64,000 nucleotides of DNA, from NCBI RefSeq assembly GCF_003426815.1, contig NZ_QKYK01000009.1, positions 62,001 through 126,000 of the forward strand, read 5' to 3'. This stretch comes from Desertimonas flava (GTDB taxonomy: Bacteria > Actinomycetota > Acidimicrobiia > Acidimicrobiales > Ilumatobacteraceae). The position numbers and the translations under genes are program-made. Positions 35,781-62,890 of the stretch are shown piece by piece. Every line of letters starts with the position of its first letter. Position 1 is the stretch's first letter. The notes beneath the pieces are model-generated. The model made no database searches, had not been told where the DNA came from, and was given only the letters and a program-made list of their open reading frames with translations.

Positions 35781-36079
35781 GCGCCTGACGGGATGTGCCA
35801 GGAGGGTGAGCGGAGAGGGCATGTAGTTGTCGGTGAGACGGTGGGTCGCCTCGGGGACACCTCAGGCACGGACGGGACGGTACATACCCCACCGAAGCGT
35901 CCGGTATTTGCCCTCCGGTCGGGCGAGCCGAGTGGCCGGTCACCGCCAGGTACGAACGGGAGGGCAAGTACCCCACCGAAGCGTCCGGTATGTACCCTCC
36001 GGTTGGGTCGGGCGAGCCGGGTGGCCCTCCGCCTGGCACGGCCTTTCCGCTCACCGCCCAGGCACATCCCGTCAGACGC
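35781..36079. repeat. 299-bp element with terminal inverted repeats and an internal duplication (MITE-like)
   Basis: The ends are inverted copies: 35786-35814 and the complement of 36046-36074 match at 26 of 29 positions (TGACGGGATGTGCC...GGTGAGCGGA), with similarity extending to about 34-45 nt. Inside, a 53-58 nt direct repeat (35885-35937 and 35969-36026, containing CACCGAAGCGTCCGGTAT) is duplicated. The element fills the murF-ddl divergent gap, ending 47 nt from murF and 45 nt from ddl. No ORF. Either a mini transposable element or a duplicated symmetric regulatory region. Confidence 0.75.
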
Positions 36080-36124
36080 TGGTGCCGCGGTCGGAGAGCA
36101 GGCCGGCAAGTACCGTTGGCACCC

Positions 36125-37249
36125 ATGAGCCGCATCCATCTCGTGGTCCTGTACGGGGGCCAGTCGGCCGAGCACGACGTGAGCTGCGTCACGGCCGCCC
36201 ACGTGCTCGCCGCGGTCGATCCGGCCAAGTACCGCGTCACCCCGATCGGGATCTCCACCTCGGGCGAGTGGATGCTCAGCGAGGGCGCCCAGGCCGCCCT
36301 CGACGCCGGGCCCGGAGCCCTGCCGAGCCGCCTCGAGGTGGCCGGTCCGGCCGTGTCGGTCGGCGATATCGTCGCCGCGGGCGGCGCCGGCGCCGTCACC
36401 GCCGAGCATGACGCCGACCGTGACATCGACCATGAACTGACCGTCGTGCTGCCCCTGCTCCACGGCCCGCTCGGCGAGGACGGCACCGTGCAGGGACTCC
36501 TCGAGCTCGCCAACGCCGTGTATGTCGGATCCGGGGTGCTCGGCTCGGCCCTGTCGATGGACAAGGCGATGGCCAAGCAGGTCCTCGCCGTCAACGGCAT
36601 CCCCCAGGCCCGTTTCCGGGCGTTCGGCGAGCACGAGCTCACGCCCGGCCTGCCGGCCGAGATCGCCGCCGACCTCGGCCTGCCGTGCTTCGTGAAGCCG
36701 TCGAACATGGGGTCGTCGGTCGGTGTGACCAAGGCCCACGACGTCGAGGAGCTGCGCGACGCCATCGACTACGCCCTCGGCTACGACGAGTGGGTGGTCG
36801 TGGAGGAGGCGATCACGGGTCGCGAGATCGAGGTCGCCGTCCTCGGCGGCACCAGCCCCGAGGCCTCCGGGGCCGGCGAGATCGTGCCCGGCGAGGAGTT
36901 CTACACGTACGAGGACAAGTACGTCACCGACGGCGCGCAGCTGCTGATTCCGGCGCCGCTCACCCCCGAGCAGACGACCGAGGTCCGCGACCTGGCCGTG
37001 CGCGTCTTCAAGACGCTGCGCTGCGACGGCCTCGCCCGCATCGACTTCTTCCTCGAGGAGGGCGCCGAGGGGCGGCCCGGCCGCGGGTTCCTCTGCAACG
37101 AGGCCAACACCATGCCCGGCTTCACGCCGATCTCGATGTACCCGAAGCTGTGGCAGGCCGCCGGCGTGTCGTACCCGGAGCTGATCGACCGCCTCGTCGA
37201 TCTCGCCGTCGCCCGCTCGCAACGCCGCCGCCGCAACACGAAACACTGA
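36125..37249 (+). CDS. ddl: D-alanine-D-alanine ligase
   Basis: 374 residues from the ATG giving MSRIHLVVLYGGQSAEHDVS. ATP-grasp enzyme that joins two D-alanines for peptidoglycan. Motifs: GGQSAEHDVS at the N-terminus (the Glu binds the first D-Ala), LHGPLGEDGTVQG, VYVGSGVLGSALSMDKAMAK (Ddl signature), ATP-grasp loop FVKPSNMGSSVGV, metal-site end RIDFF...NEANTMPGFTPISMYPKLW. The Tyr of the omega loop (YTYEDKY) indicates D-Ala specificity rather than D-Lac (family knowledge). It faces murF across the inverted-repeat element. Confidence 0.96.
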   Translation: MSRIHLVVLYGGQSAEHDVSCVTAAHVLAAVDPAKYRVTPIGISTSGEWMLSEGAQAALDAGPGALPSRLEVAGPAVSVGDIVAAGGAGAVTAEHDADRDIDHELTVVLPLLHGPLGEDGTVQGLLELANAVYVGSGVLGSALSMDKAMAKQVLAVNGIPQARFRAFGEHELTPGLPAEIAADLGLPCFVKPSNMGSSVGVTKAHDVEELRDAIDYALGYDEWVVVEEAITGREIEVAVLGGTSPEASGAGEIVPGEEFYTYEDKYVTDGAQLLIPAPLTPEQTTEVRDLAVRVFKTLRCDGLARIDFFLEEGAEGRPGRGFLCNEANTMPGFTPISMYPKLWQAAGVSYPELIDRLVDLAVARSQRRRRNTKH

Positions 37250-37390: not shown

Positions 37391-37996
37391 TCAGGCGTGG
37401 GGTGACAGGGCGGCGCGGAGGAAGGCGCGCAACTCGGTGCGGAGGTGACGGAGCTCGACCAGGTTGGCGTGCCAGCCGACGGCCCGCAGCGCTTCGGGGT
37501 CGGTGGCGATGCCGGTGACGGTTGCCGCGGCGAGGGATGCGAGCAGGCGCGGATCGCTGCGACGCACCCGGCCGGCGTCCATCTCCGCGCCGAGATACGC
37601 CACGGCGCGGTCGACCAGCGGGACCAACCGCTCCCGCAGGCGGGCTGCCCGGGCCTCGGGGAGCCTGCTCAGCTCACGCATCAGCCCGAGCAGGGGCGGC
37701 GTGCGCACGGCCGCACGGAAGACGGCGCGCACCACCGAGTCCACGCGGGCCAGCGGCTCGTCGGGCGCGGCGCGCACGGCAGCCTCGATGACGGCGCCCA
37801 TCTGGGCCACGGCGTCGGCGAACACGGCGTCGACCAGCTCGTCCTTGGTGGCGAACCAGTACAACACGGTCTGCTTGCGCACCCCGACGGCAGCGGCGAT
37901 CTCGTCGAGCGAGACGGCGTCGACGCCGCGCGTGCCGAAGAGCTCGGTCGCCGCGGCCAGGATCCGGCCCCGGGTCGATGTCGCGACCACCGCCAC
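37391..37996 (-). CDS. TetR-family transcriptional regulator
   Basis: 201 residues, GTG start. N-terminal helix-turn-helix: TRGRILAAATELFGTRGVDA, VSLDEIAAAVGVRKQTVLYWFATKDELVDAVF. The C-terminal ligand domain is Ala/Arg-rich with no known ligand motif. The start is 14 nt from a perfect 30-nt palindrome that also precedes the divergent acyl-CoA reductase gene, so it very probably represses itself and the plus-strand lipid cluster. An acyl-CoA or fatty aldehyde ligand would fit the context but is a guess. Confidence 0.9.
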   Translation of the reverse strand: MAVVATSTRGRILAAATELFGTRGVDAVSLDEIAAAVGVRKQTVLYWFATKDELVDAVFADAVAQMGAVIEAAVRAAPDEPLARVDSVVRAVFRAAVRTPPLLGLMRELSRLPEARAARLRERLVPLVDRAVAYLGAEMDAGRVRRSDPRLLASLAAATVTGIATDPEALRAVGWHANLVELRHLRTELRAFLRAALSPHA

Positions 37997-38010: not shown

Positions 38011-38040
38011 ACGTCTCTCTACCAACTGGTAGAGAGACGT
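38011..38040. promoter_or_regulatory. TetR operator: perfect 30-nt palindrome
   Basis: Arms ACGTCTCTCTACCA and TGGTAGAGAGACGT are exactly complementary around the central AC; the inner part CTACCAACTGGTAG is the shape of TetR-family operators. It lies 15-44 nt upstream of the tetR start. A weak promoter with an extended -10 (TGATAGAAC, 38051-38058) follows on the plus strand, so the right arm would overlap its -35. Confidence 0.85.
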
Positions 38041-38077
38041 CGCCGGGCGTGATAGAACAAGGTCCGTGATGCCTCCC

Positions 38078-38219
38078 GTTCAGCGAGCGCAGCGAGCGTC
38101 CCGAAGTCCGATCGGCCAAGGGGACGGAGGAGCTTGCTCCGACCGAGCCGTTCACGCTGCGCAGGCAGATCACGGCGTGGCCACTGAGCTTCAGCGAATC
38201 GCTCGTATGGAACGCAGCA
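38078..38219 (+). repeat. ~140-bp interspersed repeat, copy C
   Basis: Same ends as copies A and B: CAGCGAGCGCAGCGAGCGTC at the left, GAGCTTCAGCGAATC and GGAACGCAGCA at the right, but opposite orientation and a diverged middle (GGACGGAGGAGCTTGCTCCG). The right end stops 4 nt before the GTG of the reductase gene, so the repeat makes up its 5' leader and GGAACG may act as its ribosome site. Confidence 0.75.
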
Positions 38220-38223
38220 GCGC

Positions 38224-40626
38224 GTGATCGCCGAGAGCCTGGCCGGCAAGCGCATCGCCATCACCGGATCCACCGGGTTCGTGGGCACGGCGCTGGTGGA
38301 GCGCCTGCTTCGCTCCGTGCCCGACTGCTCGCTGGTCCTCCTCGTGCGCGACGGCAAGCGCACCCCGGCGCCCGAGCGGGTGCGCAAGGAACTGTTGAAG
38401 AACGACGCCTTCGACCGGCTTCGCGCCAGCCACAGAGACGGCCGGGGTCGCGGCGGCGAATCGTTCGACGAGATGACGGCGCGGCGCATCACGACCATCC
38501 GCGGCGACGTCGGGCGAGACGGCCTCGGACTCGACGCCGACGACCGGCGCACGCTCGCCAGCTGCGACGTCGTCATCCACTCCGCCGCCACCGTGTCGTT
38601 CGACTCCCCGCTCGACTCGGCGATCGAGATCAACCTGCTCGGGCCCACCCGCATCGCCAACCTGCTCCACGAACTGGGCCCCAACCCGAATGGCGTCCTC
38701 CCCCACCTCGTCGCCGTGTCCACGTGCTACGTGGCCGGCAACCGCCGCGGACGGGCGCCCGAGGAGCTGGTCAGCCAAGGACCGTTCGACCTCGGCCTGT
38801 CGTGGCAGAACGAGGTCACCGCCGCCCGTCGCCTGCGCAGCGACAGCGAGGCGGCCAGCCGGCTCCCCGATCAGCTCGCCGAATTCCGGGCGGCGGCGCG
38901 CAGCGAGCTCGGAGCCGCCGGCGCGCCTGCGCTCGCCGCCAAGACCGAGCAACTCCGCGAGCGATGGGTGAAGGACCAGCTCGTCACCGCCGGGCGCGCG
39001 CGCGCGGCGAGCGTCGGCTGGCCCGACGCCTACGCGTTCACCAAGGCGCTCGGCGAGCAGGCCCTCACCGACACCGTCGCGGCGAACGCGGCGACGACCG
39101 ACACCGGCCTCCGGGTGCCGTTCACGATCGTGCGGCCGTCGATCATCGAGTCGGCGTGGGCCGAGCCGCGCCCGGGGTGGATCCGCGGCTTCCGCATGGC
39201 CGAGCCGGTCATCCTCTCCTACGCCCGTGGTCTGCTCAGCGAGTTCCCGGGCGTTCCCGAGGGCACCGTCGACGTCATCCCGGTCGACCTCGTCGTGGCC
39301 GCCATCATCACCGTCGCCGGCGTCGGCGCGGCGGACTCGCCACCGATCGTGCAGGTCGCCTCCGGAGGCATCAACCCGCTCAAGTACAAGGCGCTCGTCG
39401 ACGACATCCGCGACTGGTTCACCGAGCACCCCGTGTACGACAGCGAGGGCCAGCCGATCGTCGTCCCCGAGTTCCGCTTCCCCGGCCGCGGACGCGTGCA
39501 GGGCCAGCTCACCAAGGCCAAGGCGGTGCTGGACCGCGGCGAGAAGATGCTGCACGCCCTGCCCTTGCGGGGCAAGCAGGCCGAGCTGTCGGCCAAGCTG
39601 GAGACGAAGCGTCAAGAAGTCGAGCGGGCGCTCGAGTACGTCGAGCTGTACGGCCTCTACACGGAATGCGAGGCGATCTACGAGGTCGACCAATTGCTGT
39701 CGGTGTGGGACCGCCTCGACGCCGCCGACCAGGAGGCGTTCAACTTCGACCCGCGCAGCGTCGACTGGCACCACTACGTCACCGAGATCCACCTGCCGTC
39801 GATCGTGCGCCACAGCCGTGTCAAGACGGCACCGGGCAAGACGACCACCGATCGCAACAAACGGCTGCGCAAGCAGGTGCTGTCCCCCGACCGCCACATC
39901 GCCGCGTTCGACCTCGAGAACACGCTGATCGCCTCCAACGTCGTCGAGAGCTACTCGTGGATCGCCACCCGCCGGCTCGATCCGGCTGAGCGGGTTCGGT
40001 ACGTGCTGCGCACCCTGGCCGAGGCACCGCGGATGCTCAAGCTCGATCGGGCCGACCGCACCGACTTCCTGCGGCACTTCTACCGCCGCTACGAGCACGC
40101 GCCGGTGGAGCAGATCGAGCAGGACACACGCGAACTGCTCACGCAGGTGATCCTCACCAAGAGCTTCCCGGCCGGCCTGCGCCGCGTGCGTGAGCACAAG
40201 GCGCTCGGGCACCGCACGGTGCTGATCACCGGGGCGCTCGACTTCGCCGTCGCCGGGCTGCGGCCGCTGTTCGACGAGGTCATCTCGGCCGAGATGTCGG
40301 TCCGGCCCGACGGCACGTACTCGGGTGAGATGACCACCGTGCCGCCGACCGGAGAGGCCCGCTCGCAGATCCTCGCCGACTACGCCGAGGCCGAGGGCCT
40401 GTCGCTCGCCGAGTCGGTGGCCTACGCCGATTCCTCGAGTGACCTGCCGATGCTCGAGGCGGTCGGCTTCCCGGTGGCCGTCAACCCCGAGACCCGGCTC
40501 GCCGCCATCGCCCGCAAGCGGGGCTGGCTCGTGGAGCACTGGGCCAAGGCGGGCGGCAACGCCACCCGCCCGTTCCCCTTCGCCCCCGTGATGTCCGAAC
40601 GCGACCGCCGCGAGAGGTTCGCATGA
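38224..40626 (+). CDS. fatty acyl-CoA reductase fused to an HAD-IB hydrolase
   Basis: 800 residues. Residues 1 to about 420: extended short-chain dehydrogenase of the male-sterility/NAD_binding_4 type (ITGSTGFVGTALVERLL at 13-29, catalytic Tyr270 and Lys274 in YAFTKALGEQAL, VRPSIIESAW). These reduce acyl-CoA to aldehyde or alcohol with NADPH. A middle helical 'sterile' part follows. Residues about 555-790: HAD subfamily IB domain with Asp563 in AFDLENTLIASN, LITGALDFAV and YADSSSDLPML (Asp736); the second acidic residue of motif I is Glu. Its substrate is unknown (phosphate or lysophospholipid-type esters in related proteins). First gene of the cluster under the TetR operator. GTG start fixed by the repeat end. 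Confidence 0.85.
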   Translation: MIAESLAGKRIAITGSTGFVGTALVERLLRSVPDCSLVLLVRDGKRTPAPERVRKELLKNDAFDRLRASHRDGRGRGGESFDEMTARRITTIRGDVGRDGLGLDADDRRTLASCDVVIHSAATVSFDSPLDSAIEINLLGPTRIANLLHELGPNPNGVLPHLVAVSTCYVAGNRRGRAPEELVSQGPFDLGLSWQNEVTAARRLRSDSEAASRLPDQLAEFRAAARSELGAAGAPALAAKTEQLRERWVKDQLVTAGRARAASVGWPDAYAFTKALGEQALTDTVAANAATTDTGLRVPFTIVRPSIIESAWAEPRPGWIRGFRMAEPVILSYARGLLSEFPGVPEGTVDVIPVDLVVAAIITVAGVGAADSPPIVQVASGGINPLKYKALVDDIRDWFTEHPVYDSEGQPIVVPEFRFPGRGRVQGQLTKAKAVLDRGEKMLHALPLRGKQAELSAKLETKRQEVERALEYVELYGLYTECEAIYEVDQLLSVWDRLDAADQEAFNFDPRSVDWHHYVTEIHLPSIVRHSRVKTAPGKTTTDRNKRLRKQVLSPDRHIAAFDLENTLIASNVVESYSWIATRRLDPAERVRYVLRTLAEAPRMLKLDRADRTDFLRHFYRRYEHAPVEQIEQDTRELLTQVILTKSFPAGLRRVREHKALGHRTVLITGALDFAVAGLRPLFDEVISAEMSVRPDGTYSGEMTTVPPTGEARSQILADYAEAEGLSLAESVAYADSSSDLPMLEAVGFPVAVNPETRLAAIARKRGWLVEHWAKAGGNATRPFPFAPVMSERDRRERFA

Positions 40627-40713
40627 CCCGCGACAGCATTCTCAGGCGTCAACGGTCGCGAAATCGCGACACGCGCGTCACACGAATCCTCGAGCGACCG
40701 CCGGCGCGGCGAA

Positions 40714-40755
40714 CTGTGAGCGCTCGGCGCGGGTATGCGCGCTGTGGGCTCACAG
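40714..40755. promoter_or_regulatory. inverted repeat upstream of the Zn-dehydrogenase gene
   Basis: CTGTGAGC and GCTCACAG are perfect complements 26 nt apart, ending 16 nt before the start codon, in a 145-nt gap. The same gap has GTCGCGAAATCGCGAC. Either may be an operator or a leader hairpin; no matching regulator is known. Confidence 0.4.
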
Positions 40756-40771
40756 ATCGCGGGAGGCGGCG

Positions 40772-41965
40772 GTGAAGGCGCTGCAGATCAAGCGGTCGGT
40801 GCCGCGTCTCGGCCTTGCTCGCGTGGCGTCGGCTCTCGGATCAGCGGCGGCGGCGCGGGTCGGCCCGCTCGACTACACGAGCGTCGACGAGCCGGAGCTC
40901 CCGGGCGACGGCTGGCACCGCGTGCGCACGCGGCTGTCGGGCATCTGCGGATCGGACCTGTCGATGATCGAAGGCCACGCGTCGACGTACTTCGACGACC
41001 TCGTCTCGTTCCCGTTCGTCCCCGGCCACGAGGTGGTCGGCCAGCTCGACGACGGAACCCGGGTGATCCTCGAGCCGGTGCTGGGCCACGCCGCCCGCGG
41101 CTTCCCGCCGCCCTTCGACGGCGCCGCACCCGGCGACGGCGACGACTACGGCCACCTCGCCGACGAGACGGTGATCGACGCCGGCATCCAGACGGGCTTC
41201 TGCTGTTCCACCGGCGGGGGCTGGGCGCCGGAGTTCGTCGCCCACGAGAGCCAACTGCACCGCATCGGCGACGACGTCCCCGACGAACGGGCCGTCCTCG
41301 TCGAGCCGTTGGCCGGCGGCATCCACGCCGCCCTCCTCGCCGCCGCCGGGGCGTCCGCCGCCGCGACGGCCGAGCCGATCATCGCCGTGCTCGGCGCCGG
41401 CACGATGGGGCTCGCCGCGGTCGCCGGGCTCGTGCGGTACGTGCCCGACGCCGTCGTCGTGGTCGGCGCCCGCTATCCCCACCAACAAGCGGCGGCGAGG
41501 CTGCTCGGCGCCCATCACGTGGTGCCGGCCGCCGAGCTCGCCCGCGCCGTGCGCCGCCTCGACGGGTGCCGGATCGTCGGTGACCACCTCTCACGCGGCG
41601 CCCATGCCACCATCGACGCCGTCGGCACGGCGGCGTCGATCGCCGAGTGCCTGCGGCTCACCCGTCCGCGGGGCCGCGTCACGCTGATGGGCATGCCGGC
41701 GGAGGTCACGCTCGACCTCACCGGCCTGTGGCACCGCGAGACAGAACTCGTCGGCGCCTACACCTACGGCACCGAGACGCTCGTCGACGGCAGCCGCCGC
41801 CGAACGTTCGATCTCGCCATCGAAACCGCCACGGCGATCGAGGCCGAGCGGTGGCTGTCGGCCACCTACCGCCTCGCCGACCACGTCGACGCCATCGCCC
41901 ACGCCGGGGCCGCCGGCCGACGGGGCGCCATCAAGATCGCCTTCGACCTCAGGGAGCCGGCATGA
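40772..41965 (+). CDS. zinc-binding medium-chain dehydrogenase
   Basis: 397 residues, GTG start with GGGAGG 5 nt upstream. MDR-superfamily: catalytic zinc ligands Cys in LSGICGSD and His-Glu in VPGHEVVG, with the third region VEPLAGGIHAAL; NAD(P) loop AVLGAGTMGLAAVAGL. The four-Cys structural zinc loop of classical alcohol dehydrogenases is absent; in its place is a GQ-poor loop with CCSTGGGWAPEF. C-terminal LRLTRPRGRVTLMGMP is standard. It could oxidise or reduce the fatty alcohol/aldehyde made by its neighbour, or a polyol. Second gene of the cluster. Confidence 0.83.
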   Translation: MKALQIKRSVPRLGLARVASALGSAAAARVGPLDYTSVDEPELPGDGWHRVRTRLSGICGSDLSMIEGHASTYFDDLVSFPFVPGHEVVGQLDDGTRVILEPVLGHAARGFPPPFDGAAPGDGDDYGHLADETVIDAGIQTGFCCSTGGGWAPEFVAHESQLHRIGDDVPDERAVLVEPLAGGIHAALLAAAGASAAATAEPIIAVLGAGTMGLAAVAGLVRYVPDAVVVVGARYPHQQAAARLLGAHHVVPAAELARAVRRLDGCRIVGDHLSRGAHATIDAVGTAASIAECLRLTRPRGRVTLMGMPAEVTLDLTGLWHRETELVGAYTYGTETLVDGSRRRTFDLAIETATAIEAERWLSATYRLADHVDAIAHAGAAGRRGAIKIAFDLREPA

Positions 41966-42039
41966 CGCCTCCGCCGACGACATCGCCCGACCTCATCCGA
42001 GTGCCGACTGCCCTCCAGGTGGGCGCTCGACACTCCGGC

Positions 42040-42062
42040 GCGGTTCAACACTCGGACGGGTC
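42040..42062 (+). repeat. 23-bp repeat GCGGTTCAACACTCGGA-Y-GGGTC, copy 1
   Basis: Matches 44874-44896 at 22 of 23 positions. Located in the 124-nt gap between the dehydrogenase and LarA-like genes, 27 nt before the latter's start. A shorter inverted match (CCCATCCGAGT, near 43686) lies between the LarA-like and acyltransferase genes. Confidence 0.65.
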
Positions 42063-42089
42063 GGACCGGGCGGACGGAGGGCGGGGCTG

Positions 42090-43676
42090 ATGCCGCGCCC
42101 CGGATTCGTGCTCGATGTCGATCGCTCGACGCCGCCGATCCTGTTCTGGCACGGCGACGGTCTGCGCCTCGAGAAGCTGCCGGCCGACCGCAGCCGCGTC
42201 GTGTACGCGCCCGAGCCCCTGGACTCGATCGACGACATCGACGGCGCCATCCGCCACGCCCTTGAGCACCCGATCGACAAGGAACCGTTGCGGGCCTTGC
42301 TGTTCCCGGGCATGAAGCTGACGATCGCCTTCGACGACGTCAGCCTGCCGCTGCCGAAGATGCAGCGTCCCGACATCCGCCAGCGCGTCATCGAGGCCGT
42401 GCTCGACCTCGCCGCCGAGGCCGGCGTCGACGACGTGCACATCATCGCCGCCCTCGCCCTGCACCGGCGGATGACCGAGGCCGAGTTGCGCCACGCCGTC
42501 GGCGACCGCGTCTACGACGCCTTCGCCCCGTCCGGCGCGCTGTACCAGCACGACGCCGAGGACGCCGACAACCTGCTGTCGTTCGGCGAGACGCCGCACG
42601 GCGAAGAGGTCGAGATCAACAAGCGGGCGGCGACGTCGGATCTGCTCGTCTACGTCAACATCAACCTCGTCGCCATGGACGGCGGGTGGAAGTCGACGGC
42701 GATCGGTCTGGCGTCGTACAAGTCGCTGCGTCACCACCACAACCCGGTGACCATGGAGAACAGCAAGAGCTTCATGGACCACCACAAGAGCGAGATGCAC
42801 CACGCCACGTGGCGCATGGGCAAGGTGCTCACCGACGGCGGCGTGAAGGTCTTCCAGATCGAGACCACGCTCAACACCGACACGTTCCCCAAGCCGTTCT
42901 CGTTCCTGTCCAAGCGCGAGTGGGAATGGAACGCCAAGGACCGGGCGCTCTACCTCGGCACCGCCAAGGGACTCGGCGCCATGCCCACCCCGGCGGCCCG
43001 CAAGATCCTCCACTCGATCGAGTCCCCGCACCAGGTGACGAGCATCCAGTGCGGCGACGTCGAGGCGGTGCACAAGATCACGGTGGCCAACGTGCACAGT
43101 CAACAGCTCGTCGAGGTGCACGGGCAGACCGACATCTTGACGATGGGCATCCCCTACATCTGCCCGTACAACGTTCACTCGATCATGAACCCGATCCTGG
43201 TCATGTGCATGGGTCTCGGGTACCTGTTCAACATGTACCGGGGCAAGCCGCTGGTGCGGGAGGGGGGCGTGGTGATCATGACGCACCCCACCGAGCCCGA
43301 CTTCAACCCGGTGCACCACCCGAGCTACATCGACTTCTACGAGCAGGTGCTCACCGACACGACCGACCCGCACGAGATGTCGAAGAAGTGGGAGGAGCGC
43401 TACGCCTACGACGACTGGTACCGGCACCTCTACCGCACCGGCAACGCCTACCACGGCGTGCACCCGTTCTACATGTGGTATTGGGGTGCCCACGGGTTGC
43501 GTCACTGCGGCAAGGTGATCATCGTCGGCGGCAACCCCAAGGCCGTACGGCGGCTCGGCTTCACCGCCGCGTCGACGTTGAACGATGCACTGGAGATGGC
43601 CTCGGACGTGGTCGGCCGCTCCCCCACCATCACGCACATCAAGGCCCCGCCGCTCATGATCGCCGATGTGCACTGA
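42090..43676 (+). CDS. LarA-like (lactate racemase/DUF2088 domain) protein
   Basis: 528 residues, ATG start. N-terminal DUF2088-like part with TIAFDDVSLPLPKMQRPDIR at 78-97, as in LarA nickel-pincer racemases and epimerases, then an Asp/His-rich middle (SLRHHHNPVTM, SFMDHHKSEMHHATWRMG) that could hold the cofactor and catalytic histidines, and a C-terminal part (GIPYICPYNVHSIMNPILVM). About 100 residues longer than LarA. The NPN cofactor genes larB, larC and larE are not in the window. The assignment to the fold is fairly safe; racemase activity on a hydroxy acid or sugar-like group is inferred. Third gene of the cluster, 40 nt before the acyltransferase. Confidence 0.75.
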   Translation: MPRPGFVLDVDRSTPPILFWHGDGLRLEKLPADRSRVVYAPEPLDSIDDIDGAIRHALEHPIDKEPLRALLFPGMKLTIAFDDVSLPLPKMQRPDIRQRVIEAVLDLAAEAGVDDVHIIAALALHRRMTEAELRHAVGDRVYDAFAPSGALYQHDAEDADNLLSFGETPHGEEVEINKRAATSDLLVYVNINLVAMDGGWKSTAIGLASYKSLRHHHNPVTMENSKSFMDHHKSEMHHATWRMGKVLTDGGVKVFQIETTLNTDTFPKPFSFLSKREWEWNAKDRALYLGTAKGLGAMPTPAARKILHSIESPHQVTSIQCGDVEAVHKITVANVHSQQLVEVHGQTDILTMGIPYICPYNVHSIMNPILVMCMGLGYLFNMYRGKPLVREGGVVIMTHPTEPDFNPVHHPSYIDFYEQVLTDTTDPHEMSKKWEERYAYDDWYRHLYRTGNAYHGVHPFYMWYWGAHGLRHCGKVIIVGGNPKAVRRLGFTAASTLNDALEMASDVVGRSPTITHIKAPPLMIADVH

Positions 43677-43715
43677 GCGCGTGGTCCCATCCGAGTTCGG
43701 TGCCCGGCGGGTGAC

Positions 43716-44726
43716 GTGAGCTCGGCGCGATATCTCAAGGTCGCGGCTCGGGCCGCGGGGCGCGTCGAGGACGCCGTCGCCAAGGCGACGCGGCCGGCGC
43801 GCAACGTCGGCTTCCCCTATCGGGCGCCGACCGTGCCGGGCGGCGTGGAGGTGCCCGAGGAGCCGTCCGAGCTCGGGGCCGACTACGACACTCGCTGGGC
43901 GCGTTCGCCCGTCGCCAAGGTGGCCAGGGCCGTCATCGTCGCCGGGCCGATGAAGGCGCTCGTCGACGGTCTGGCCGCGCCCGACATCTTCGGGCACGAC
44001 CGCCTCGACGATCTCGTGCGCACCGCCGGCGACGACGGTCCCGCGCCGGTGATCTTCACGCCCAACCACCACAGCCACCTCGACACGGCGCTGATGGTGC
44101 GGGCCGTTCCCGACGTGTGGCGGCCCAAGCTCTTCACCGCAGCCGCCGCCGACTACTTCTTCGACAAGCGCTGGAAGGCGCGTCTGTCGGCGCTGTCGCT
44201 GAACGCCGTGCCGATCGACCGCGAGGCCACCGGCCGCAAGTCGGCCGATCAGATGGCCACGCTGCTGCAGCGTGGCTGGAGCCTCGTGATCTATCCAGAG
44301 GGCGGCCGCTCACCCGACGGCTGGGGTCACTCGTTCAAGGGCGGCGCCGCCTACCTCGCCAACCGGGTGGGCGTCCCCGTGGTGCCCGTCCACATCGATG
44401 GCACCGACACCGTGTTCCCGAAGGGCGCCAAGCGTCTCAAGCCGGGGCGCACTCGGGTGACGTTCGGTCGCCCGATCCGCCCCCACGAGGGTGAGTCGAC
44501 GCGGCGCCTCAACGAGCGCATCGAGCGGGCCGTCGCCGAGCTCGCCGACGAGGCGTCCACCGACTACTGGTCGGCACGCCGCAGGGCGGCTGCCGGGACG
44601 ACCCCGTCGCTCACCGGCCCCGCCTACACCGGTTGGCGGCGCCAGTGGGCCCTCGCCGATCGCCGCAAGCGCGGCGTCGCCGCCTGGCGCAAGCCGCCCC
44701 AGCGCCGCTGGCCCGACCTCGGCTGA
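43716..44726 (+). CDS. PlsC-like 1-acylglycerol-phosphate acyltransferase family protein
   Basis: 336 residues, GTG start. Acyltransferase motif I NHHSHLDTALM (HX4D), motif III VIYPEGGRSPDG, and VPVVPVHIDGTDTVFP (motif IV). About 115 residues precede motif I, and a basic Arg/Lys/Trp-rich C-terminal tail of about 60 residues follows. Probably membrane-associated; transfers an acyl chain to a glycerolipid-type acceptor. Last gene of the TetR-facing cluster. The stop lies inside a 30-bp tandem repeat, and a long palindrome follows before the convergent livF. Confidence 0.86.
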   Translation: MSSARYLKVAARAAGRVEDAVAKATRPARNVGFPYRAPTVPGGVEVPEEPSELGADYDTRWARSPVAKVARAVIVAGPMKALVDGLAAPDIFGHDRLDDLVRTAGDDGPAPVIFTPNHHSHLDTALMVRAVPDVWRPKLFTAAAADYFFDKRWKARLSALSLNAVPIDREATGRKSADQMATLLQRGWSLVIYPEGGRSPDGWGHSFKGGAAYLANRVGVPVVPVHIDGTDTVFPKGAKRLKPGRTRVTFGRPIRPHEGESTRRLNERIERAVAELADEASTDYWSARRRAAAGTTPSLTGPAYTGWRRQWALADRRKRGVAAWRKPPQRRWPDLG

Positions 44727-44873: not shown

Positions 44874-44896
44874 GCGGTTCAACACTCGGATGGGTC
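44874..44896 (+). repeat. 23-bp repeat, copy 2, overlapping the livF stop codon
   Basis: Differs from the copy at 42040 by one base (T for C). Its last two bases are part of the livF stop codon on the minus strand. Confidence 0.65.
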
Positions 44897-61264: not shown

Positions 61265-62890
61265 TTGCCATTGGCACTCGTGGCTGCCCCCACCCGAGTG
61301 TCGCGTCGGCGGTTCATCTCGCTCGGCGGCGCCGTCGCCGCCGGGCTCACAGGGAGTGGCATCGCCCGCGGAGCCGCAGGCGGCGTGCGCTTCTTCGGCA
61401 CGTCGGCCGAACCGCCGATCACCCGGGATCCCTTCACCCTCGGCGTCGCGTCCGGCGACCCGTGGCCCGGCAGCGTGGTGTTGTGGACCAGGCTCCTCCC
61501 CCGCCCCGACCGGATCGACGATCCGGGACTGGGACAGCGATCCGTGGACGTCGCCTGGCAGATCGCCACCGACCCCTCGATGCGAGTCATCGAGCGCCAC
61601 GGCGTCGCACGAGCCGAGCCGGCGCACGGCCACTCGGTGCATGTCACGGCCGACGGCCTGCGGCCGGGCCGCGAGTACTGGTACCGCTTCCGGACCGGAT
61701 CCTGGCTCAGTCCGATCGGGCGGACGAAGACCGCACCGGCGACCGACGCCACGCCCGCTCGGCTCGACCTGATCGCTGCGTCATGCCAGTCGTGGGCGGC
61801 CGGCTACTACACCGCGCATCGTCACATCGCCGCGGAGCATCCCGACGTGGTGGTGTTCCTCGGCGATTACATCTACGAGCGCCCGATCACGGCCACCGAC
61901 TGCGCCCGGCTCCTGCCGACCGACCTGCCCCCGCACCTCGCGACGGAGACCGACACCCTCGAGCGCTACCGCGCCCAGTACGCGTGGTACCGGCAGGATC
62001 CCGACCTGCAGGCGAGCCACCGCGCGGCGCCATGGGTCGTCACGTGGGACGACCACGAGGTGCAGGACAACTACGCAGGCTTTGACAACGTGAGCGGCCT
62101 CGCCGATGATCGCTTCGCCGCTCGCCGGGCCGCGGCCTACCAGGCGTACTGGGAGCACCTGCCGCTGCGCAGCCGTCCACCGATCGGGCCGTCGATGACG
62201 ATGCACCGGCGTCTCGACTTCGGCACGTTGCTGCTGCTCGAGGTGCTCGACACCCGCCAGTTCCGCTCACGTCAGATGTCGGGAGCCGGATGGACGGCCG
62301 ACGCCCCGGGCCGGCGCGACCCCGGGCGGACCATGCTCGGCGACTCCCAGCAGCGCTGGCTCGAGGCTGGCCTACGAACCTCACCGGCGACGTGGAACGT
62401 GATCGCCCAGCAGGTCATGCTCGGCCGCATCGCCATCGAGTCGACCGACGGCCCACTCCACAACGTCGACACCTGGGACGGCTATCCCGTCGCGCAGCGC
62501 CGCATGCACGACGCCCTTGCGGCGACTGCCAACCCGGTGGTGCTCACCGGCGACCTGCACGCCGGCTACGCCCTCGATGTGACGGCCGCAATCCGCCACG
62601 ACTCCGACCGCGACGTGACGCCGATCGCCGCCGAGTTCGCCGCCACGTCGATCAGCAGCGGCGGTGACGGGAGTGACGAGTCAGCGACCCATCGCCGTCT
62701 GCTGCGCAGCAACCCCCACCTGCACTACGCCAAACCGCGCCGCGGCTATCTGCGCTGCCGAGTGTCGCCGCGCGAGATGACGGTCGACTTCCGCACCGTT
62801 CTCCGCGTCGAGCGCGATGCTCACTCGCCGGTGTCGACAGACCGTTCGTTCGTCGTCGAGGCCGGCCGCCGGGGAATTCACACCGCGTAG
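61265..62890 (+). CDS. PhoD-like alkaline phosphatase D, Tat-exported
   Basis: About 541 residues. A twin-arginine signal SRRRFISLGGAVAAGLTGSG lies at about residues 13-32. Then an N-terminal PhoD domain (PFTLGVASGDPWPGSVVLWTR) and the metallophosphatase core: CQSWAAGYYTAHRHIA, VFLGDYIYE, VTWDDHEVQDNYAG, VLTGDLHAGY, which hold the Ca/Fe ligands. Periplasmic-side phosphodi- or monoesterase for phosphorus scavenging. The listed start is TTG; no ATG is available and a second TTG or a GTG (61280) is possible. Divergent from gntR; the GntR site lies 94 nt upstream. Confidence 0.9.
   Translation: MPLALVAAPTRVSRRRFISLGGAVAAGLTGSGIARGAAGGVRFFGTSAEPPITRDPFTLGVASGDPWPGSVVLWTRLLPRPDRIDDPGLGQRSVDVAWQIATDPSMRVIERHGVARAEPAHGHSVHVTADGLRPGREYWYRFRTGSWLSPIGRTKTAPATDATPARLDLIAASCQSWAAGYYTAHRHIAAEHPDVVVFLGDYIYERPITATDCARLLPTDLPPHLATETDTLERYRAQYAWYRQDPDLQASHRAAPWVVTWDDHEVQDNYAGFDNVSGLADDRFAARRAAAYQAYWEHLPLRSRPPIGPSMTMHRRLDFGTLLLLEVLDTRQFRSRQMSGAGWTADAPGRRDPGRTMLGDSQQRWLEAGLRTSPATWNVIAQQVMLGRIAIESTDGPLHNVDTWDGYPVAQRRMHDALAATANPVVLTGDLHAGYALDVTAAIRHDSDRDVTPIAAEFAATSISSGGDGSDESATHRRLLRSNPHLHYAKPRRGYLRCRVSPREMTVDFRTVLRVERDAHSPVSTDRSFVVEAGRRGIHTA

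Follow-up and report, generated by a model that had tools for sequence, protein, structure and literature searches.

The stretch of the Desertimonas flava genome analysed here, hereafter the window (64,000 nucleotides; positions 62,001 to 126,000 of contig NZ_QKYK01000009.1), carries four plus-strand genes that follow a TetR-family regulator gene of opposite orientation and an inverted-repeat operator (Table 1). They encode a fatty acyl-CoA reductase fused to a HAD domain, a zinc-type dehydrogenase, a homologue of the lactate racemase LarA, and a PlsC-type acyltransferase. An initial annotation, made from the letters of the window, had claimed the four genes and the perfect operator; these and the divergent TetR gene were confirmed. 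Known protein families are combined here in a way that makes a role of a nickel-pincer enzyme in lipids likely. The explanation that we favour, tentatively and with somewhat less than even confidence, takes the four genes as a single unit under TetR control whose product is an alkyl (ether-type) glycerolipid, one of its steps being a hydride transfer by the nickel-pincer cofactor.

Table 1. Genes and operator of the unit, with positions in the window
Feature	Position	Orientation	Support
TetR-family regulator	37391-37996	minus, divergent	PF00440, E 4.1e-14
Inverted-repeat operator, two perfect 14-bp arms around AC	38011-38040		sequence inspection
Fatty acyl-CoA reductase (NAD_binding_4 + Sterile) fused to HAD-IB domain, 800 aa	38224-40626	plus	
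Zinc-type medium-chain dehydrogenase	40772-41965	plus	PF00107, PF08240
LarA homologue, LarAH14/15/16 family, predicted nickel-pincer nucleotide enzyme	42090-43676	plus	NCBIfam NF052592
PlsC-type acyltransferase	43716-44726	plus	PF01553, E 2.7e-19

In a scan of genome contigs, 585 of the first 589 stretches were confirmed as relatives of the LarA homologue, and the best 80 (69-80% identity) were kept. Gene order was counted over these 80 loci, all from other genomes, wherever enough flank was available. The reductase preceded LarA in 67/67 testable loci, PlsC followed it directly in 75/76, and the dehydrogenase sat between reductase and LarA, directly before the latter, in 67/74; these counts are not independent, because some of the loci come from near-identical genomes. 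The gene set and its order are established by these loci, and the TetR-linked lipid-type cluster announced initially is conserved outside the strain. A search of the phylum, whose 30 best loci include that of the window and further ones from the same family and order, found the dehydrogenase adjoining LarA in 30/30 and PlsC in 28/30; the two loci without PlsC were L089, which gave no PlsC match, and L114, which ends at a contig edge. Regions of 20 kb around LarAH14 proteins showed the reductase-dehydrogenase-LarA series in 13/13 and PlsC in 8/13, at least six of their genomes being also among the 30 phylum-search loci. Sister LarA groups (L127, L128, and L143; ~420-540 bits, below the cut-off of NF052592) were discarded as carriers of the same setting: lipid genes were not around them, with the exception of a HAD-only match 5 kb from the LarA of L143. 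Incidentally, three loci titled as other bacteria, L025 and L082 (Bifidobacterium breve) and L058 (Acidobacteria), carry Acidimicrobiia-like clusters, and these titles are probably wrong.

The regulator was divergent in 48 of the 53 loci with enough upstream sequence, and lay downstream of PlsC in 11 of the 30 best phylum-search loci. In the window, the 22-bp core of the operator has no second match at three mismatches or fewer, and none appeared in 100 shuffles; the 14-bp core occurs as a single exact copy in the 6,220,585-base genome. The core TACC-N4-GGTA was present in 50 of 54 divergent TetR/reductase spacers from other genomes, as against 103 of 20000 random 110-bp pieces from the same loci. 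This count required both genes in view and left out L058 and L069 (gaps >600 bp); some of the 54 loci are near-identical genomes, hence not all independent. The core is above chance frequency in these spacers, which supports a dedicated local regulator. A wider regulon could not be drawn from the operator. Allowing one mismatch gave six other places in the genome, and these matches were fewer than those of a reversed-pattern control (7 vs 15), so further regulated genes cannot be named.

The intergenic gaps of the window unit (145, 124, and 39 bp) are wider than the medians of its relatives, which are, between match ends, 30 bp upstream of LarA and 54 bp downstream. A 15-base repeat stands in the spacer before LarA (42042-42056) and again after PlsC (44876-44890); two copies were reached in 0/100 shuffles. 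Upstream of TetR lies a D-Ala-D-Ala ligase gene (35990-37249), which is likewise upstream in 41/49 loci with adequate flank.

The LarA homologue matched NF052592, the NCBIfam model for LarAH14/15/16, over its full length with 898.7 bits (cut-off 740), and a Rubrobacteraceae copy (L132) reached 867.2 bits. An alignment of 111 sequences, the window's and those of 110 loci (the window gene is in it a second time, and one genome is represented twice, as L012 and L100), left D82, S85, H125, N190, N192, K201, H217, Y360, H455, and H458 invariant in 111/111. Alignment to solved LarA enzymes, with roles taken from residues named in the available parts of PMC7583248 and PMC12611868, identified K201 as the pincer lysine, H217 as the nickel ligand, and H125 as the first catalytic histidine. 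The second was missing. The reference catalytic pair is H108 and H174 of L. plantarum LarA, and the homologue keeps only H125, with no histidine at 186-200 (the H174 region) save a variable residue beside the lysine; at the H174 position itself, where single-histidine LarA of the Asn type has asparagine, phmmer puts N192 beside a one-residue gap and MAFFT sets the gap alongside. The arginine of the cofactor-phosphate/substrate site was replaced by serine in all 111 sequences. The five Rubrobacteraceae copies showed the same signature. An AlphaFold2 model of the homologue (mean predicted local distance difference test score 84.2; <50 at 85-88, 357-366, and 402-408) was closest in fold to the single-histidine LarA 9q3k (Z 37.2, root-mean-square deviation 2.9, 453 aligned), as compared with an ordinary LarA, 5huq (Z 29.1, 3.4, 411 aligned); it pointed to no substrate. 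PF17763, tried as a mark of the LarA C-domain, was a wrong choice and uninformative.

These residues bear on a first alternative, a lipid whose building block is a 2-hydroxy acid or a long-chain diol, in which the LarA homologue would invert or oxidise the hydroxyl of a 2-hydroxy acid before reduction and acylation. Characterised LarA enzymes use 2-hydroxy acids (accessible sections of PMC7583248 and PMC11770544), NCBIfam labels the NF052592 family hydroxyacid isomerase, and a Phytophthora protein numbered LarAH15, in a numbering that may differ from NCBIfam's, is described as an active gluconate 2-epimerase (excerpts of PMC11770544). However, neither the second catalytic histidine nor the arginine is kept, the Frankia LarAH14 was reported negative in seven racemase/epimerase assays in the text at hand, and a hydroxylase is not among the genes of the unit. 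We consider this alternative unlikely. The homologue had initially been suggested to act perhaps on the configuration of a hydroxy-acyl or glycerol-like unit; as ordinary alpha-hydroxy-acid racemisation this is unsupported, because the second histidine is missing and the arginine is a serine. What stands of the LarA catalytic residues is the pincer lysine, the nickel histidine, and one catalytic histidine. According to the portions seen, groups 14 and 15 are without the second histidine (PMC12611868), and LarA groups without such residues may run another hydride-mediated reaction (PMC7583248, Desguin 2020). The Frankia negatives fit a different substrate but prove none.

The best structural match of the reductase was the fatty acyl-CoA reductase PDB 7eoz (E 4e-58), and its motifs GxTGFxG and YxxTK, of the NAD_binding_4 type, were kept in 65/65 sequences. 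In the Rubrobacteraceae genome G041, the reductase of the unit was the sole strong NAD_binding_4 match, three others lying at 1e-10 to 1e-11. Second strong NAD_binding_4 proteins, found in 8/10 Rubrobacteraceae, were set aside as adenylation-reductase-like, judged by eye in two pieces (L194, L195). The HAD residues D563, E565, T669, R713, D736, and D740 were kept in 65/65 sequences, with motif I reading DxE, not the phosphatase-type DxD, in 65/65 sequences of the genome-contig set. In L131, L132, L138, and L141, motif I reads DxD, so that the general acid/base position differs by lineage. The best family matches of the dehydrogenase all stayed far under their cut-offs; they included inosose, idonate, threonine, and galactitol-phosphate dehydrogenases. 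In the acyltransferase, H118, D123, E195, G196, and R198 (HX4D and EGxR) were conserved in 101/101 sequences.

A fatty acyl-CoA reductase with an acyltransferase would also suit fatty-alcohol storage lipids, that is, the making or recycling of wax esters or neutral lipids, or the disposal of fatty aldehydes, the LarA homologue serving a side reaction. Against this, the acyltransferase is of PlsC type and, in Rubrobacter, PlsY adjoins the reductase, which points to glycerol phosphate lipids; we find storage or disposal decidedly unlikely. PlsY was directly upstream of the reductase in 5/5 Rubrobacteraceae regions (in L141 by PF02660), and in none of the five did a match to PlsC turn up within 20 kb. 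Two of them have a protoglobin gene between dehydrogenase and LarA (L131 12669-13322, PF11563; L132 12306-12905), and the dehydrogenase of Rubrobacter marinus (G237; L136 7760-8829) is a two-piece match, possibly a frameshift or a diverged middle.

Rubrobacteraceae also provide the link to ether lipids. The family is our f24, recognised by plasmid contigs of G237, G076, and G195 that are identical over 15 kb to named plasmids of R. marinus, R. indicoceani, and R. tropicus, and the LarA homologue was above cut-off in 23/26 of its genomes among those listed. Rubrobacterales are described as having ~46% ether-linked core lipids (PMC10821996, in the part available, citing Sinninghe Damste 2023). 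For the ether-like product suggested initially, Rubrobacter gives indirect support; the lipid product and the ether bond themselves are what we infer. PF09989, which we take to be a mark of the ester-to-ether reductases Ger/PlsA, was found in 0/17 genomes with the LarA homologue, ten of them Rubrobacteraceae. It matched in 4/14 controls (Thermotoga, Thermus, Deinobacterium, Lactococcus), and the matches in Thermus, Deinobacterium, and Lactococcus make it a loose mark.

Ether bonds might also come from a protein like alkylglycerone phosphate synthase (AGPS) encoded elsewhere, the unit supplying fatty alcohol and acyl transfer and the LarA homologue setting only the stereochemistry of the backbone. 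The window genome does hold an AGPS-like protein (L153, on contig C4), whose best PDB match is AGPS with E 1.5e-50. Yet among 14 genomes with the LarA homologue, which gave 41 FAD-oxidase_C matches (30 loci compared, 11 not), none of the 30 compared loci was closest to L153. In the Rubrobacteraceae G041 and G011, all three of three FAD-oxidase_C proteins each had better scores against a glycolate-oxidase-type protein than against the AGPS-like protein. An AGPS-type pathway is, on these comparisons, quite improbable, and the unit becomes a candidate operon for Rubrobacterales ether lipids: ten Rubrobacteraceae are without the Ger marker and the two fully checked are without an AGPS-like protein.

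The larBCE genes, which the initial annotation had proposed to look for, are all present in the window genome, with larB and larC side by side on contig C53 and larE on C41, each above cut-off. This presence alone is not specific, since the genome has a second LarA-type gene on C67. That gene (L006:6570-7991; 474 aa) belongs to another group, with 199.9 bits to NF052592, and the genes next to it, inspected by eye, resemble sulfatase and sugar-acid genes. In three other genomes (G051, G226, and G289), larE, larB, and larC directly adjoin the cluster, all seven genes being co-directional in G051 and G226 and larE inverted in G289; larE adjoins the cluster in G075 as well. The family model detected no other LarA at E 0.001 in these four genomes. 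The adjoining larE, larB, and larC make it likely, as judged from gene content, that the LarA homologue uses the nickel cofactor. The LarC of G051 and G226 consists of the LarC1 part only. Cluster-adjacent LarC genes in L130 (13847-14572) and L135 (6186-6893) match the LarC1 part only, and a LarC2 query over these two 20-kb regions returned nothing beyond one chance-level match.

Across 296 phylum genomes, LarC was found in 63 of the 72 family-positive ones vs 130 of the 224 others (Fisher p 2e-6, kinship uncorrected). Nine family-positive genomes were without LarC; two of these have LarE, and in the other seven (G263, G294, G106, G084, G213, G181, and G160, with completeness of 98, 96, 95, 91, 84, 81, and 81%, respectively) the LarA homologue was above cut-off and neither LarC nor LarE was detected. 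Pincer lysine and nickel histidine were kept in all four of the seven whose loci were read. Five genomes of the family or order that have no LarA homologue (G145, G166, G210, G230, and G241) gave no LarC or LarE either. That the homologue has given up the cofactor and works without it, as the seven of 72 genomes and the serine in place of the phosphate-binding arginine might suggest, is very unlikely in our view, given that the pincer lysine and nickel histidine stand in 111/111 and in those four genomes too, and that larE, larB, and larC adjoin the homologue in three genomes.

Returning to the alkyl glycerolipid explanation, the steps could run as follows. The reductase would convert acyl-CoA to a fatty aldehyde or alcohol. 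Equipped with the nickel-pincer nucleotide that LarB, LarC, and LarE synthesise, the LarA homologue would transfer hydride on the alkyl or glycerol unit, relying on its single catalytic histidine, and the dehydrogenase may add or remove hydride at a carbon of the polyol type. Phosphate would be handled by the HAD domain, and PlsC, or in Rubrobacter the PlsY beside the reductase, would add an acyl chain to the backbone. As with the product, we infer the sequence of these steps and what the LarA homologue acts on. A bolder version, highly doubtful in our estimate, makes the LarA homologue itself the ether-forming enzyme: the nickel-pincer cofactor would accept or donate hydride at the hemiacetal of fatty aldehyde or alcohol and glycerol phosphate and so yield the alkyl ether, by reductive or hydrogen-borrowing etherification. 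If true, this would be a further ether-lipid route, with a nickel-pincer enzyme building a bond and not inverting a centre.

Several observations weigh against the alkyl glycerolipid explanation. Chief among them, where a strict need for the cofactor is concerned, are the seven LarC/LarE-negative genomes. The dehydrogenase is missing in 7/74 loci, which rules it out as an essential member of the unit. In the window genome itself, L153 could make ether bonds in the established way. The Frankia LarAH14 negatives count here too, and group 16 was set aside as perhaps not using the cofactor in the pages available of PMC7583248 (Desguin 2020), a doubt that touches the LarA homologue because NCBIfam merges groups 14, 15, and 16. 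In the literature found, there were no lipid data for Desertimonas flava, and Acidimicrobiia came up with alkyl ethers only as a class mentioned in 16S profiles. The cluster context of this rare nickel-pincer-type enzyme suggests a new use of the cofactor, possibly in ether-linked lipid synthesis. If true, a role of the nickel-pincer cofactor in membrane lipids would extend over Acidimicrobiia, Rubrobacter, and further lines of the phylum.

Among known systems, the Myxococcus xanthus elb ether-lipid operon likewise combines a FAR1-like domain with a HAD protein and a PlsC-like acyltransferase (PMC9131029, available in part). Its ElbD also bears acyl-CoA synthetase and ACP domains, and a LarA homologue goes unmentioned in the accessible text of that paper. 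The initial statement that no known pathway has this set therefore needs qualifying for the reductase/HAD/PlsC part, which elb shares. No ElbD-type multidomain protein is in the unit; no search for one was made elsewhere in the genome. Ger/PlsA ester-to-ether reductases also give sn-1 ether lipids (PMC11150832, as excerpted), with a protein unrelated to the LarA homologue. Our open-access literature search never found lactate racemase joined with ether lipid, or with acyl-CoA reductase, acyltransferase, and gene cluster, and did not find a Rubrobacter glycerol-ether operon. The abstract of Sinninghe Damste 2023 reportedly names a putative Rubrobacter 1-O-alkyl glycerol phosphate operon; if that operon is this unit, part of the novelty is gone.

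The closest solved folds, the single-histidine LarA enzymes of Blautia wexlerae (9q3j) and Streptococcus plurextorum (9q3k), have also lost the second histidine. They share 24-25% identity with the LarA homologue, which has a serine where theirs is a lysine, at the phosphate-binding place. Carbohydrate metabolism was proposed for single-histidine LarA enzymes (PMC12611868, in the part seen). With LarAH14/15/16, the likeness extends over the full-length match and the retained pincer lysine, nickel histidine, and one catalytic histidine. For the Frankia LarAH14, the record is one of seven negative assays, and our literature search turned up no lipid setting for the family; the unit studied here gives the LarAH14 group of nickel enzymes a testable pathway setting.

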